Of a DNA stretch of 64,000 bases, positions 14,586 through 50,428 are shown one piece after another. The position numbers and the translations under genes are program-made. How positions within the stretch are numbered: the first letter of the stretch is position 1; the number at the start of each line of letters is the position of its first letter. The notes under the pieces were generated by a model. That model did no database searches. It was not told where the DNA came from and saw nothing but the letters and a program-made list of their open reading frames with translations. Source of the stretch: Palleniella muris (GTDB lineage: Bacteria > Bacteroidota > Bacteroidia > Bacteroidales > Bacteroidaceae); assembly GCF_004792655.1 (NCBI RefSeq), contig NZ_SRZC01000005.1, positions 62,001 through 126,000 of the forward strand. Direction: 5' to 3'.

Positions 14586-15482
14586 TCAATCATTATTGGC
14601 TTTGGCCACAACCCAGCCATTGTCCTCTGTATGGAGAAGCCTGAAATTCATCACGCCATAGTTCTCGCTCTTATAGAGCACCCAGCCGAACGGTGTCCTG
14701 TCCTCTATCTCATAGACAACACTGCACTCGCCCTTGCCGTTCTTCACATACTCCTCCGGACAGAAGACATCGAGAACCTCGACAACCTTCAGCTTGCCGG
14801 CAAGCATGTTACAGGTCTCCACCTTAACCCTCTCCACGGCTGCTTCATAGGAACCTGCAGAAGCGGTGGTCTCTGCCGGCTTCTCCTCCTCCATAGGTGC
14901 AGCCACCTCAGCCATAGCCTCGGCAACCTCCGCAGAGTCAATCACTTCGTCTTCCTTCTCCGGCTTCTCGGGAACCGCCTCTTCCTTCTTCTCCGGTTTC
15001 TCACCAGCCTTTGCCTCAAGGTTCATGAAGTCAGGCTCTTTCAGTTCCTTGTACTTCTTCTCAAGCTTACGGAGGACTTTCTCCCAGTCCTCACGCATGG
15101 CAGGCTTCTCGCTGACAAGGTACTTGCGTCCCTCTTCCGTGAGTTTCACATCGGCGAAAGTGTGCTCGATGTTCTCAGTGTATGAGGAAGAGCTGTACCA
15201 AGAGTAGCTCCATCTCTTTTTCTTCTCAGTGACCTTCTCGGTCTTGAATGTTATCACGTTCGCTTTCTGCAACTGGTTGAGCTGTGCGATGTCGTCCTCC
15301 GAAACCTCGTAGTAGCCGACATTGAACTGTACTGTCAGACTGCTGTCACGGAAGGCTGTATGCTCTTCCACGGCTTTTTTCGCCAGACGGGCAGACAACC
15401 GGTCGCTGTCACATGACACCAATGAAAACGCGCCAACGCATACGAAGGCTGACAAAAGGAATTTGGTTACAATTTCTCTCAT
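14586..15482 (-). CDS. Lipoprotein of unknown function with Glu/Lys/Pro-rich linker
   Basis: About 298 residues from the ATG at 15482. A lipoprotein signal is clear: a basic start (MREIVTKF), a hydrophobic core and lipobox LVSC with the lipidated Cys near residue 22. Three parts follow. The first is a folded N-terminal region (about 25-150) containing FNVGYYEVSEDD. The second is a low-complexity EKPEKKEEAVPEKPEK linker with an Ala/Glu tail (about 160-210). The third is a C-terminal domain with VEVLDVFCPEEYVKNGKGECSVVYEIED, ending GWVVAKAND-like. I do not recognise the family. A longer upstream frame exists but lacks a signal peptide at its start. A promoter is seen at 15580-15611. Confidence 0.8.
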   Translation of the reverse strand: MREIVTKFLLSAFVCVGAFSLVSCDSDRLSARLAKKAVEEHTAFRDSSLTVQFNVGYYEVSEDDIAQLNQLQKANVITFKTEKVTEKKKRWSYSWYSSSSYTENIEHTFADVKLTEEGRKYLVSEKPAMREDWEKVLRKLEKKYKELKEPDFMNLEAKAGEKPEKKEEAVPEKPEKEDEVIDSAEVAEAMAEVAAPMEEEKPAETTASAGSYEAAVERVKVETCNMLAGKLKVVEVLDVFCPEEYVKNGKGECSVVYEIEDRTPFGWVLYKSENYGVMNFRLLHTEDNGWVVAKANND

Positions 15483-15579
15483 AATGGTAAAAGTTTGATA
15501 AATAAAAAAAAATGGGGTTATGGAATAATCTGACAGCCATGGTACATCATTCCCGACAACTGTCATTAATATACGGTAA

Positions 15580-15611
15580 CAAAGATACATCTTTTTCTTT
15601 ATAAATGCAAG
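15580..15611 (-). promoter_or_regulatory. Promoter of the lipoprotein gene
   Basis: On the minus strand: CTTG (complement of 15608-15611), 20 nt, TATCTTTG (complement of 15580-15587). One mismatch in the -33 element; leader of about 90 nt to the start at 15482. Confidence 0.6.
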
Positions 15612-15874
15612 AAAATCAGCAAGAAAAGTTCAGAAAGCCATAAAAATGATTGTTCTTGCCTGTTTTTCACCTGCCATGTCATGTCTTTTGCTCTTCCGCG
15701 AAACGGCTGTAGGCACATGAGCCGTTGGCAAGCAGGCACATTTCTAAAGTCGGCGTCTCCATTATTTTGCCATTTTGCAACCATAGCAAGGCGATTGCTT
15801 GCAAAACGACAGGTATTTCGGTGTTTTTGATAAACTGAAATCTTAACAAACATTAAAGTACAGATGGTATTACG

Positions 15875-15953
15875 AAAGGTAACGGTTCACAGTGCAAAAG
15901 GTAACGGTTTGCCTGGTGAAAGGTAACACTTTGCCATGCAAACCGTTACCTTT
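15875..15953. repeat. 22-bp-period quasi-palindrome array, locus 1
   Basis: Four 13-mers start at 15875, 15897, 15919 and 15941 (exactly 22 apart): AAAGGTAACGGTT, AAAGGTAACGGTT, AAAGGTAACACTT and AACCGTTACCTTT. The fourth is the exact reverse complement of the first two. Spacers are 9 nt and resemble CACNATGCA. The array lies in the 767-bp divergent gap between the lipoprotein and the large subtilase. The rest of this gap is AT-rich with no gene; a TAATTTTG -7-like box at 16139-16146 may serve the subtilase. Confidence 0.9.
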
Positions 15954-16249
15954 CACTCTGCACACTGTCAGCGACCATTCTTTTGGGGTTATCGAAACAG
16001 TGTCCCATACGTCATAATGTCCGTCTTACCCTGCGAACCAACTTATTGTTTGCAACTTTTTTATGATGATTCATATATTTTTTTTGTGTTTTCTTGCGAA
16101 TTTTATTTGAAATGTAATAAAATATGTGTGATTTTTTGTAATTTTGCAGATTGGTAATATATTTTTTATGCAGGGTATATGTTTTTTCATCATCAGATAG
16201 CATATTTTTCATACATAAATATCATTAATTAATTTAACAACAAAAGCTT

Positions 16250-30824: not shown

Positions 30825-30917
30825 TATTCTCGGTTAACTTTTGTCAATTCGCTGCATTTCAGTTTGAAAGAGGATAAATAACGATAAGAAAACACCGCCG
30901 TAAAGGACGGCATAACG

Positions 30918-30996
30918 AAAGGTTACCTTTCATGCTGCCAAAGGCTACCTTTTACACCACAAAAGGTAACCCTTCGCCATGCGAATCGTTACCTTT
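30918..30996. repeat. 22-bp-period quasi-palindrome array, locus 2
   Basis: 13-mers at 30918, 30940, 30962 and 30984: AAAGGTTACCTTT, AAAGGCTACCTTT, AAAGGTAACCCTT, AATCGTTACCTTT. The 22-bp period is exact and the spacers are 9 nt. It lies in the divergent gap between the tetR promoter and the ychF promoter. Confidence 0.9.
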
Positions 30997-31086
30997 CACT
31001 TCGTCACTCTTCCACCACTACAAAACGACTCCTTTATGCCTGTCACCATCATTATCTTTGCTTTTAGCTTAAATAATTGCAAATAA

Positions 31087-37943: not shown

Positions 37944-38094
37944 ACTATTTGTGAAAAATAAGTTTTCTAACCCGACAAATTCATAAAAATTAACACTATT
38001 CCATGGAATCGGCACGTTTTTCGGGAAAGAAAGTGCCATATCTTCTTGGTGTATGCCACACCTCGTTGCAGTATACGTCACAGAGGGGAAAACG

Positions 38095-38173
38095 AAAGAT
38101 AACCTTTCACCATGCAAAAGGTTACGATTGACACGACAAAAGGTTACCTTTCACAATGTAAAAGGTAACCTTC
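38095..38173. repeat. 22-bp-period quasi-palindrome array, locus 3
   Basis: 13-mers at 38095, 38117, 38139 and 38161: AAAGATAACCTTT, AAAGGTTACGATT, AAAGGTTACCTTT, AAAGGTAACCTTC. Spacers CACCATGCA, GACACGACA, CACAATGTA. It sits between the second subtilase and the PCMD-like gene, both on the minus strand. Nothing else is seen in this 347-bp gap apart from the promoter. Confidence 0.9.
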
Positions 38174-38217
38174 TGTTATGCAATGCACAATTTATTGATA
38201 TTCAGTTATATACAAAA

Positions 38218-48458: not shown

Positions 48459-48524
48459 GAAAGAAACATTATTTCCCGGACACAAAACCCTACAGAAACA
48501 GGATTGAGAAAAGAGAACAGGAAT

Positions 48525-48603
48525 ATAGGTGACCTTTCACCCGGTAAACCATGACACTTTATATGAAAAAAGGTGACCTTTCATTGTGTGAAAGGTCACC
48601 TTC
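48525..48603. repeat. 22-bp-period quasi-palindrome array, locus 4
   Basis: 13-mers at 48525, 48547, 48569 and 48591: ATAGGTGACCTTT, AACCATGACACTT (degenerate), AAAGGTGACCTTT, AAAGGTCACCTTC. The centre is GGTGACC/GGTCACC here rather than GGTWACC. It fills the convergent gap between the AAA remnant and the pectate lyase gene. Confidence 0.88.
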
Positions 48604-48628
48604 TGATTTTCTGTCCGTAAGGTTACGA

Positions 48629-50428
48629 TTAGTCAACCACCACAGCCTTGCCTTTGTAGATATACATACCCTTGGCAAGTCCGTCAAGGCTGTCAGCATT
48701 CCTGCGCACGCAACGGCCGTCGATGGTGTATATATTCGTGTTTGCAGGCATGGCGTCCACCGTGTTGTCCGTGATGCAGTCGATGCCTGTCATGGCATTC
48801 GCGTTCTGCGCCGCGGTGATGTGCGCCACAAGAGAGTTAAGGTAATGCTCAAGGTTTGTGTAGCCGTCGCTCTGCACCAGTGCACCGTCAGCGGCGTCGT
48901 TAGGGTTCAGTCCGTTGGCAAGCTCCCATGCGTCCGGCATGCCGTCCTTGTCCGTGTCGAAATCATCCGCACGCTTCTCTTCCTTCAGCACAGGGAATCC
49001 GCCTGCCTCATCCTGAGTGTTGACAAAGCCGGAGGCAAGACCCTTTCCTGTGTATGAAGCCTTTTTGTCGCGCACGTCACCCACGATGTATGTGTCGTGT
49101 GAGTCACGCCACAGCGATGCTCCTGCATACTCGAGTACGTTCGTGTAAGCCTGCTCCGCAGTATGCGTGGTGACAGGCAGATAGTCGATAGGCTCTTGGA
49201 GGCGCATTGCCTTCTTCACATCCTCGGTGAATGTGCCGTCCACCTTTCCGGTGTTAACCTGTGCATACATGCCGTAAGTCCATTGGTCCTGCGGAGTGAT
49301 TCTGCTTGCGTAGTCAGGGTTCACATTGCCGTCGACATAGAACGTGCCCCACTTGTGCAGCATCTTCTTCCAGTCGTTCCATGTTATGGTAACTTTCTTG
49401 CCGTCAACATCGATTTTGTTTGTCGCCATGTCAATCTCGAATTTCCTGCCCTTGATTGTGACATAGTTCTTTCCGCCTGATGCAGAACCGCTGACATCCT
49501 TGTCCGTCGCAGCAATGCCGGTGGCAGACGTGTAGCTTGATGCGATTTTTTTCTTGTCAAGGCAGTAGTCAACAGTGCGTATGCCGATGTTGGCAATGCG
49601 GTAGCGTCGTGCCTCTGCCACTGTCGCTGTGGCAGGTCCCGGCTTGTAGTAGTTATTGACGATGTTCACGTTCATGCCCTCGCCCCCGTAGCAGCCCTCT
49701 CCTGCCCAGTTGTAGAAGACATTGTTCCGCATGTCCATGCGCTCATCCGTCTGAGTTCCGGGACGCGGACCGAGGCGTGGCACACGGGAAGTGTGGTGAG
49801 CCATAAGATTGTGATGATAGGACGCTCCCGAGCCGCCCCAGTTGCCACCATAGCCGTGCGCGCCTTTCGAGTGCCCCGAGTTTACAAGGCTCTGGTCGGC
49901 GATACACCACTGCACGGTGATGTTCTTGCTGCCATAGATGGAAAGGCACTCATCGATGGACCATGAGACAGAGCAATGGTCAATGATAATATCCTTGCGG
50001 TCCATGCCGCCGAGACCGTCCCCTTCATGTTTTGCAACATTCTCATTGCCGAGACGGAAGCGGAGATAACGTATGATGACATTGTCACCCTTGACGGTCA
50101 CCGGCCATCCTGCTATGCAGATACCGTCGCCGGGAGCTGTCTGTCCTGCCAAGGTTGTGTTGGCAGTCACATTGAGTGGAGCCTTAAGGTTTATCGTTCC
50201 TGAGACATCAAAGACAATGGTCTTCGGACCGCTTTGAGCCACAGCCCAGCGGAGCGAGCCCTTGTTTGTGTATTCGTCCTCAAGGGTGGTGACATGGAGC
50301 ACCTTGCCTCCCCTGCCGCCTGTGGTGTACATGCCGAATCCTTCCGCACCCGGGAATGCCGGCTGCTGTGCCACGGACGGCGTTGCAGCCATGAGTGCGA
50401 GAAGAAGTGTTGGGAAAAGTTTTCTCAT
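48629..50428 (-). CDS. Secreted pectate lyase (PL1-type) with T9SS C-terminal signal
   Basis: About 599 residues from the ATG at 50428 (signal peptide MRKLFPTLLLALMAATPSVAQ). The mature start AFPGAEGFGMYTTGGRGGKVLHVTTLEDEYTNKGSLRWAV is the classic PL1 right-handed beta-helix opening. Catalytic-region blocks are WSIDECLSIYGSKNITVQWC and SRVPRLGPRPG (Arg catalytic base). A calcium-binding dockerin-like FDTDKDGMPDAWELANGLNPNDAAD lies near 500, and a T9SS-type tail follows (IYTIDGRCVRRNADSLDGLAKGMYIYKGKAVVVD). It cleaves polygalacturonan by beta-elimination outside the cell. The frame stays open 67 codons further upstream across a tandem repeat, but that part lacks a signal peptide and is read here as leader RNA. 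Confidence 0.92.
   Translation of the reverse strand: MRKLFPTLLLALMAATPSVAQQPAFPGAEGFGMYTTGGRGGKVLHVTTLEDEYTNKGSLRWAVAQSGPKTIVFDVSGTINLKAPLNVTANTTLAGQTAPGDGICIAGWPVTVKGDNVIIRYLRFRLGNENVAKHEGDGLGGMDRKDIIIDHCSVSWSIDECLSIYGSKNITVQWCIADQSLVNSGHSKGAHGYGGNWGGSGASYHHNLMAHHTSRVPRLGPRPGTQTDERMDMRNNVFYNWAGEGCYGGEGMNVNIVNNYYKPGPATATVAEARRYRIANIGIRTVDYCLDKKKIASSYTSATGIAATDKDVSGSASGGKNYVTIKGRKFEIDMATNKIDVDGKKVTITWNDWKKMLHKWGTFYVDGNVNPDYASRITPQDQWTYGMYAQVNTGKVDGTFTEDVKKAMRLQEPIDYLPVTTHTAEQAYTNVLEYAGASLWRDSHDTYIVGDVRDKKASYTGKGLASGFVNTQDEAGGFPVLKEEKRADDFDTDKDGMPDAWELANGLNPNDAADGALVQSDGYTNLEHYLNSLVAHITAAQNANAMTGIDCITDNTVDAMPANTNIYTIDGRCVRRNADSLDGLAKGMYIYKGKAVVVD

Follow-up and report, generated by a model that had tools for sequence, protein, structure and literature searches.

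Evenly spaced arrays of 22-bp-phased repeat units in Palleniella muris and related genomes

A comparable repeat, PINSR, was reported by Naito et al. as an intergenic element of 188 bp, present in 177 copies in one strain of P. intermedia and in 184 in another (PMC4755523). According to the same paper, about three quarters of the sites are common to both strains, the function is described as unknown, and the PCR survey given there was positive in four related species only, with P. nigrescens among the carriers; section 3.4 interprets PINSR as an amplified repeat, and nothing is said there about a phase of 22 bp, about evenly spaced copies or about a family spanning the genus. BrickBuilt from Porphyromonas gingivalis is also a Bacteroidales repeat with a tandem core of short units, but by its published description, through which alone it is compared here, it is a transposable MITE with a leader and a tail (PMC4596501). 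Further background comes from the REP/BIME elements of E. coli, where topological domains of 10-400 kb have been described; one account discusses BIMEs as supercoiling barriers, treats the nature of the barriers to supercoiling diffusion as an open question, and considers the barriers of E. coli to be randomly placed (PMC6907758).

The arrays described below resemble REP/BIME elements in their palindromic units, their arrangement in intergenic arrays and their hundreds of occurrences per genome; unlike these elements, they occur without RAYT in G000 (the genome studied here), G159, G076 and G094, hold a fixed 22-bp phase, are evenly spaced and show no consistent hairpin covariation. The palindromes of REP elements are in addition reported to bear a GTAG or CGTC tag. 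Their resemblance to PINSR extends to an intergenic position, a similar number (approximately 232 per genome by extrapolation in the genome studied here, against roughly 180 copies), the sharing of most sites by strains of one species (P. nigrescens), and absence from conjugative and mobilisable elements (in strain F0103). However, whereas PINSR is about 188 bp long and the arrays of P. nigrescens comprise 8-9 units, the species studied here has a different core and four strong units with a weak outer signal. It is from carrier, size, place and density, rather than from consensus letters, that we would class PINSR with the present arrays. In the literature covered beyond PINSR, which leaves out most subscription papers, we found no report of a 22-bp phase or of even spacing. 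In addition, P. aurantiaca, which is outside the named positives of PINSR, has three arrays in 21 kb.

Architecture of the arrays

The window, that is, the whole stretch of 64,000 nucleotides analysed here (G000:C55:62001-126000, where G000 is the window's own draft genome of 3.58 Mb), comes from Palleniella muris. Its sequence bears out a preliminary description in which four arrays, each of four 13-bp units, were placed here with 22 bp from unit start to unit start. Array 1 lies at 15875..15953 (units at 15875, 15897, 15919 and 15941), array 2 at 30918..30996 (30918, 30940, 30962 and 30984), array 3 at 38095..38173 (38095, 38117, 38139 and 38161) and array 4 at 48525..48603 (48525, 48547, 48569 and 48591, the second being degenerate); none is assigned to a strand. 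Compared with AAAGGTNACCTTT, three of the 16 units are exact, six have one mismatch, six have two, and the degenerate unit at 48547 has five. The statement that the 9-bp spacers often read CACNATGCA was too strong, as this sequence is exact in one of the 12 internal spacers and YRC-NNN-GYR fits better. Array 2 is flanked, on the evidence of Pfam matches, by a TetR-family gene on the minus strand and ychF on the plus strand, array 3 by two minus-strand genes, and array 4 occupies a convergent gap. The earlier assignment of the four gaps to two divergent, one co-directional and one convergent matches the ORF calls, although the gap at 15875 counts as divergent through an ORF at 14586-15590 on the minus strand that has no Pfam match. 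We also noted an additional unit-like TAAGGTTACGATT at 48618-48630, 27 bp past the last unit of array 4 and 5 bp out of phase. A second dispersed repeat adjoins two arrays, at window positions 15766-15858 and in an array flank at about 163.9 kb of G000:C11; the match spans 96 columns at 78% identity and includes stretches similar to CAAGCAATTGCTT and CAAAATGGCAAAA.

When 51 G000 arrays and 21 arrays from the congener G010 were combined in a strand-symmetrised profile, each unit had a conserved core, and the midpoint of the 9-bp spacer, YRC-N3-GYR, lay 11 bp away from that of the core. The shared frame consists of AAA-N7-TTT and this spacer. The profile also showed weak T-N-A centres outside the four units, at one and two 22-bp steps on both sides. 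Projected onto the window, these centres would give arrays 1 to 4 wider footprints of 15836..15992, 30879..31035, 38056..38212 and 48486..48642, again without strand; this signal is an aggregate one that is not readable in a single copy, and it was not visible in the profile of 31 arrays from the related genome G159. A weak outward extension of the 22-bp phase was found in G000, G010 and P. nigrescens. Runs of A and T alternate about every 11 bp, a layout that DNA bent or read from one side might be expected to have. The units of G000 are often asymmetric, and in their commonest orientation pattern, seen in 9 of 51 arrays, three units point one way and the fourth points the other. The description of the 13-bp unit as quasi-palindromic holds in the window's lineage, where a unit of G000 has on average 2.19 matching inner pairs out of three, but it is not general, given that the corresponding figure for P. 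nigrescens is 1.07 of three. The possibility of a CRISPR array was also considered. CRISPR arrays have repeats with unique spacers of 20-40 nt, and this candidate was ruled out because the spacers here measure 9 bp and follow the conserved frame YRC-N3-GYR.

Number, period and distribution

A search of G000 with a 3-unit pattern found 154 forward and 123 reverse places, where the reversed pattern used as a control gave 0 and 1, and this genome-wide result does not contradict the phased array that had been proposed. The extrapolated number given above is derived from 44 arrays in 680 kb. In a 464-kb sample of G000, selected in part around matches, good units lying no more than 120 bp from one another were separated by 22 bp in 95 pairs, by 44 bp in 64 and by 66 bp in 35, whereas any other distance up to 120 bp occurred at most three times; the shuffled sample contained no pair at 22 bp. 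Scans at periods of 20, 21, 23 and 24 gave no arrays in the examined G000 and G159 contigs and 0, 1, 3 and 0 calls, respectively, in P. nigrescens, and stray single calls at periods other than 22 were confined to low thresholds or other species. The period of 22 stands out across these scans, in agreement with the view that spacing is the conserved property. The proposed fixed number of units survives in part. Four is the rule in the window's species, with four units in 28 arrays of the 464-kb sample, five in two and two in three, besides 24 lone matches (one of the two-unit calls is array 4 of the window, whose second unit fell below the threshold). Across the genus, however, the number varies from three to five and longer in single examples, such as three units in single arrays of G043 and G294 and five or more in one array of G201. 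At L036:1938 (about 101.9 kb of G000:C11), a five-unit array contains three near-identical AAAGGTATCACTT units that the G159 ortholog lacks, which suggests that a tandem duplication may have occurred there recently. A 22-bp satellite with the spacer CACTCGGCA and at least six units was observed at L073:18478 in Prevotella sp. Tb.RUG.325.

We also searched for the arrays in other genomes. When the core of the pattern was loosened, matches appeared in 31 of the 299 genomes sampled from the genus, and a sequence-only profile derived from 22 arrays of diverse species matched 160 of the 276 that were at least 90% complete; the counts per genome are lower bounds, as the first candidates were scored and the counts saturate near 15. 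The other 116 genomes had no match at the cut-off, which means either that the role is dispensable across the genus or that the profile misses their arrays. In the order-wide search, 20 of 198 genomes matched, one of them the window's own, and the top score among the remainder was 25 bits, against 70; judged by these scores, the order-level matches are probably at noise level. One genome of the order sample, G602, had three weak places, neither of the two same-family genomes outside the genus in that sample matched, and a motif-free scan of 984 kb from other Bacteroidales loci found no 22-bp arrays. The core reads AAAGGTWACC in the window's species, AAAGRTNAYC in G010, AAAAGTNACT in G168, AAAGGTTAGC in G318 and AAACAGGCNCTAT in P. 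aurantiaca, mostly on the basis of one to three arrays viewed per species. Thus, the core changes between species, whereas the AAA/TTT frame, the spacer and the period are constant.

Placement along the chromosome and persistence of sites

The arrays are mostly intergenic, and co-directional, convergent and divergent gaps are used roughly in proportion to the background of 168, 47 and 56 gaps, respectively. The corresponding numbers were 13, 3 and 2 for the 18 classified arrays of G000 and 12, 5 and 3 for the 20 of G010; a further seven arrays overlapped ORF calls, and arrays in other already-collected loci were left out. Among 15 arrays of P. nigrescens, classified by hand from an incomplete gene table, seven were in co-directional gaps, four in convergent and two in divergent ones, and two lay over small hypothetical ORFs. 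Every gap class is therefore occupied, as expected if the array is not simply a part of a promoter or terminator.

The even placement at about 13 kb goes beyond the preliminary description, as do the differences in core between species and the link with PINSR. The 41 intervals in G000 had a median of 12.6 kb, a minimum of 5.2 kb and a maximum of 27.2 kb, so that none was below 5 kb, compared with about 10 expected. Their pooled coefficient of variation (CV) was 0.39, against 0.88 for random intergenic placement, and none of 20,000 draws was as low; the outcome was the same whether the intergenic gaps were chosen with or without weighting by length. Individual contigs gave CVs of 0.43 (C11), 0.31 (C33) and 0.39 (C55). 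The sequence of C33 and most of C55 was examined after the effect had first been seen on C11, and these two contigs alone gave a CV of 0.35 (0 of 20,000). The second replicon of P. nigrescens (NZ_CP082843.1), which has 30 arrays in 288 kb with a phase spanning 8-9 units or about 190 bp, showed a CV of 0.57 (P 0.005-0.007). The spacing in G159 was weaker, with CVs of 0.75 on C26 (P 0.15) and 0.61 on C11 (P 0.06), the latter having a 65-kb gap without arrays; on C26, one interval was below 3 kb, compared with 5.4 expected (P 0.006). As regards the origin and terminus, the 24 arrays on G010 C3, listed from strict patterns, fit a uniform distribution (KS P 0.79).

Next, we compared the sites between relatives. 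G159 is syntenic with G000 C11, and most aligned blocks are 77-90% identical. Anchors on both sides were available for eight of the 19 arrays on G000 C11, and at these places G159 has a full array in six cases, a two-unit remnant in one and none in one. In the reverse direction, eight of the 13 anchored G159 arrays (21 in total) were shared; of the five that were not, two form a duplicated pair. Over seven shared pairs, from which an eighth, nearly identical pair was left out, the A/T frame was identical at 124 of 140 positions and GT/AC at 101 of 112, compared with 24 of 63 for the spacer centres and 922 of 1497 for the flanks (shuffled baseline, 0.44). Given that the frame is approximately 0.89 identical and the spacer centres 0.38 identical in the same arrays, this suggests that sequence is being kept. 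The nearest-neighbour identity among arrays was 0.648 in G159, 0.682 in G000 and 0.727 in G010, against column-shuffled values of 0.640, 0.649 and 0.684, respectively; nearest neighbours were at most 0.77 identical in G000 and 0.69, within the null, in G159, and G010 has one near-duplicate pair (0.908). Judged by these identities, the arrays of G000 and G159 are not recent copies. The retention of orthologs and the pattern of identity together indicate that most sites are old and fixed in place and pattern, with some exchange or copying.

Within P. nigrescens, all six complete arrays in about 72 kb of sequence shared with strain F0103 are kept, and two more lie at synteny breaks, whereas approximately 57 kb of conjugative or mobilisable segments in F0103, as judged from annotated genes, contains no array. 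When the second replicons of FDAARGOS_1486 and F0103 were compared, both ends of the shared block were found at arrays (L336:36801 and L343:~20930), as if arrays marked rearrangement breakpoints in this species. The murD-ftsW gap holds an array in G000, G159 and G010, and among 13 plus-strand ftsW loci listed with their upstream side, an array was found in G010 only. An array upstream of ychF occurs in the window and in Xylanibacter rodentium and in none of the other regions listed, a list that does not extend to G159 and G076. Few other neighbours are common to arrays of different species, and we do not claim deep positional conservation across distant species, because ftsW, ychF and other neighbours are rarely shared.

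Possible roles and rival explanations

Based on the pattern, phase, spacing and site persistence that we observed, we infer contact with a protein, holding of the DNA and a role in chromosome domains. Specifically, we give a probability of roughly 0.48 to the reading that the arrays bind or wrap an oligomerising DNA-binding protein and thereby anchor or insulate domains of the chromosome. The protein would touch a single face of the DNA at intervals of two helical turns (underwound DNA, with about 11 bp per turn, completes two turns in 22 bp), and the nucleoprotein complex would hold or bend the DNA. The regular placement would reflect a need for one complex per 9-14 kb, and the core would mirror the specificity of a protein subject to drift between species. 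The period, the even spacing, the background-like gap classes and the orthologous retention are consistent with this reading, as are the lack of recent copies in G000 and G159, the absence of arrays from the mobile segments of F0103, the absence of one exact two-unit pattern from viral contigs, and inverted complementarity between neighbours that is without excess in three of four genomes. On the other hand, the weaker spacing in G159 with its 65-kb gap, the 116 genus genomes without a match, the outer T-N-A signal that is not visible in G159, and the pairing tests that were positive in G010 and at positions 10-11 in G000 and G159 all speak against it, and some arrays have spread as copies (the G201 repeat described below, the G010 pair at 0.908, and G000 at 0.682 against 0.649). 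Short palindromic chromosomal sites for structural DNA-binding proteins include matS and the sites of Noc and SlmA, which our arrays resemble in being short, palindromic and chromosomal; to our knowledge, however, these are single sites, neither phased in arrays of four to eight nor placed at intervals of about 13 kb as our arrays are. As a tentative proposal, Prevotella might carry a sequence-encoded ruler, in which one phased array per 9-14 kb would bound supercoiling domains and the species dialect would co-evolve with an architectural protein.

The strongest rival, although a somewhat unlikely one, is that the arrays are old remnants of a PINSR-like non-coding mobile repeat, evenly spaced by target immunity or by the loss of close copies and now inert. 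Transposition immunity is known to space elements, and G201 has a dispersed repeat of roughly 425 bp, in at least eight copies with 80-91% identity to one copy, that contains several internal 22-bp units between AT-rich ends. This repeat may be a MITE, a class whose members are copies of one sequence bounded by terminal inverted repeats and inserted with a target duplication, and the units inside it indicate that the layout can travel within a larger repeat. The three arrays of P. aurantiaca also resemble one another over 126-175 bp at 71-75%, and the interpretation of PINSR as an amplified repeat (PMC4755523) points the same way. A comparison of flanks gave 51 mutual matches among 43 G159 arrays, one of them a 422-bp duplicate, and the first 25 of these 51 were mostly other short repeats together with the one duplicate; the same comparison among 51 G000 arrays gave only five matches, of 32-96 bp. 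Moreover, none of four presence/absence cases viewed between G000 and G159 was a clean array-length insertion, all six complete arrays were retained in the 72 kb common to the two P. nigrescens strains, and the difference in identity between frame and spacer centres is not what inert remnants should show. The RAYT transposase domain (Y1_Tnp, PF01797) had no match in G000, G159, G076 or G094, and was found in 14 of 26 genomes without tracking array richness; a REP/RAYT origin in particular was ruled out by the missing PF01797 in G000, which also counts against mobile remnants generally.

Alternatively, the units might act as RNA, with paired neighbours forming stem-loops for the termination, processing or stabilisation of transcripts from either strand. 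Stems of 13 bp are possible between adjacent units, G010 has more inverted matches than expected (z 3.1), as do units 3 and 4 of G000 (z 4.1), and both partners have changed in one ortholog pair (A206695/B120915). In addition, positions 10-11 agree in oppositely oriented neighbours in 14 of 35 cases in G000, compared with 8.1 expected (p 0.006), and in 10 of 16 in G159, compared with 3.8 (p 0.001). However, same-oriented units of G000 agree at these positions too, which points to exchange within arrays, and the complementarity of units 3 and 4 goes with unit orientation. Pairing at distance 1 showed no excess over units of other arrays (z 0.9 in P. nigrescens, 1.0 in G000 and -2.0 in G159), units 2 and 3 of G000 pair less than expected (z -4.7), divergent gaps hold some of the arrays, co-directional polarity had no firm bias (9 versus 4 of 13 in G000; 5 versus 7 of 12 in G010), no Rfam match reached the gathering score, and the even spacing is left unexplained. 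The RNA reading is thus weakened by hairpin tests that were mixed and mostly negative, yet the test at positions 10-11 stays positive, and we consider this reading unlikely. A separate case that favours unit pairing is L234:1368 (G081, downstream of ftsW), where two unit pairs are exactly complementary, with cores GGCGGCC/GGCCGCC and GGTAACC/GGTTACC. Self-recognition or uptake signals, comparable to DNA uptake sequences, in which a species dialect would be read by an import, repair or defence machine, seem quite improbable. A species-specific core on a common frame, dispersed over the chromosome, would suit such signals, as would the lack of arrays in the F0103 mobile segments, the absence of the exact pattern from viral contigs, and the failure to find array 3 of the window in plasmid and phage records. 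However, they do not require even spacing, and one site of four or more units per 13 kb or so is sparse and elaborate by comparison. Finally, it is very unlikely that the arrays serve a large regulon as operators controlling neighbouring genes: some do lie between divergent promoters (such as that at 30918), and the 22-bp spacing of units would suit cooperative repressors, but convergent gaps are used about as expected, one array is located between murD and ftsW, the arrays are evenly spaced along the chromosome, and the identified neighbours have no evident common function.

An evenly spaced, phased element across a genus that inhabits the gut, rumen and mouth would give the question of supercoiling barriers a set of fixed coordinates, and PINSR would gain an architecture and a genus-wide setting. 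If the domain reading is true, then the shift of the core between species would amount to a natural experiment in the joint evolution of one protein and its hundreds of sites.
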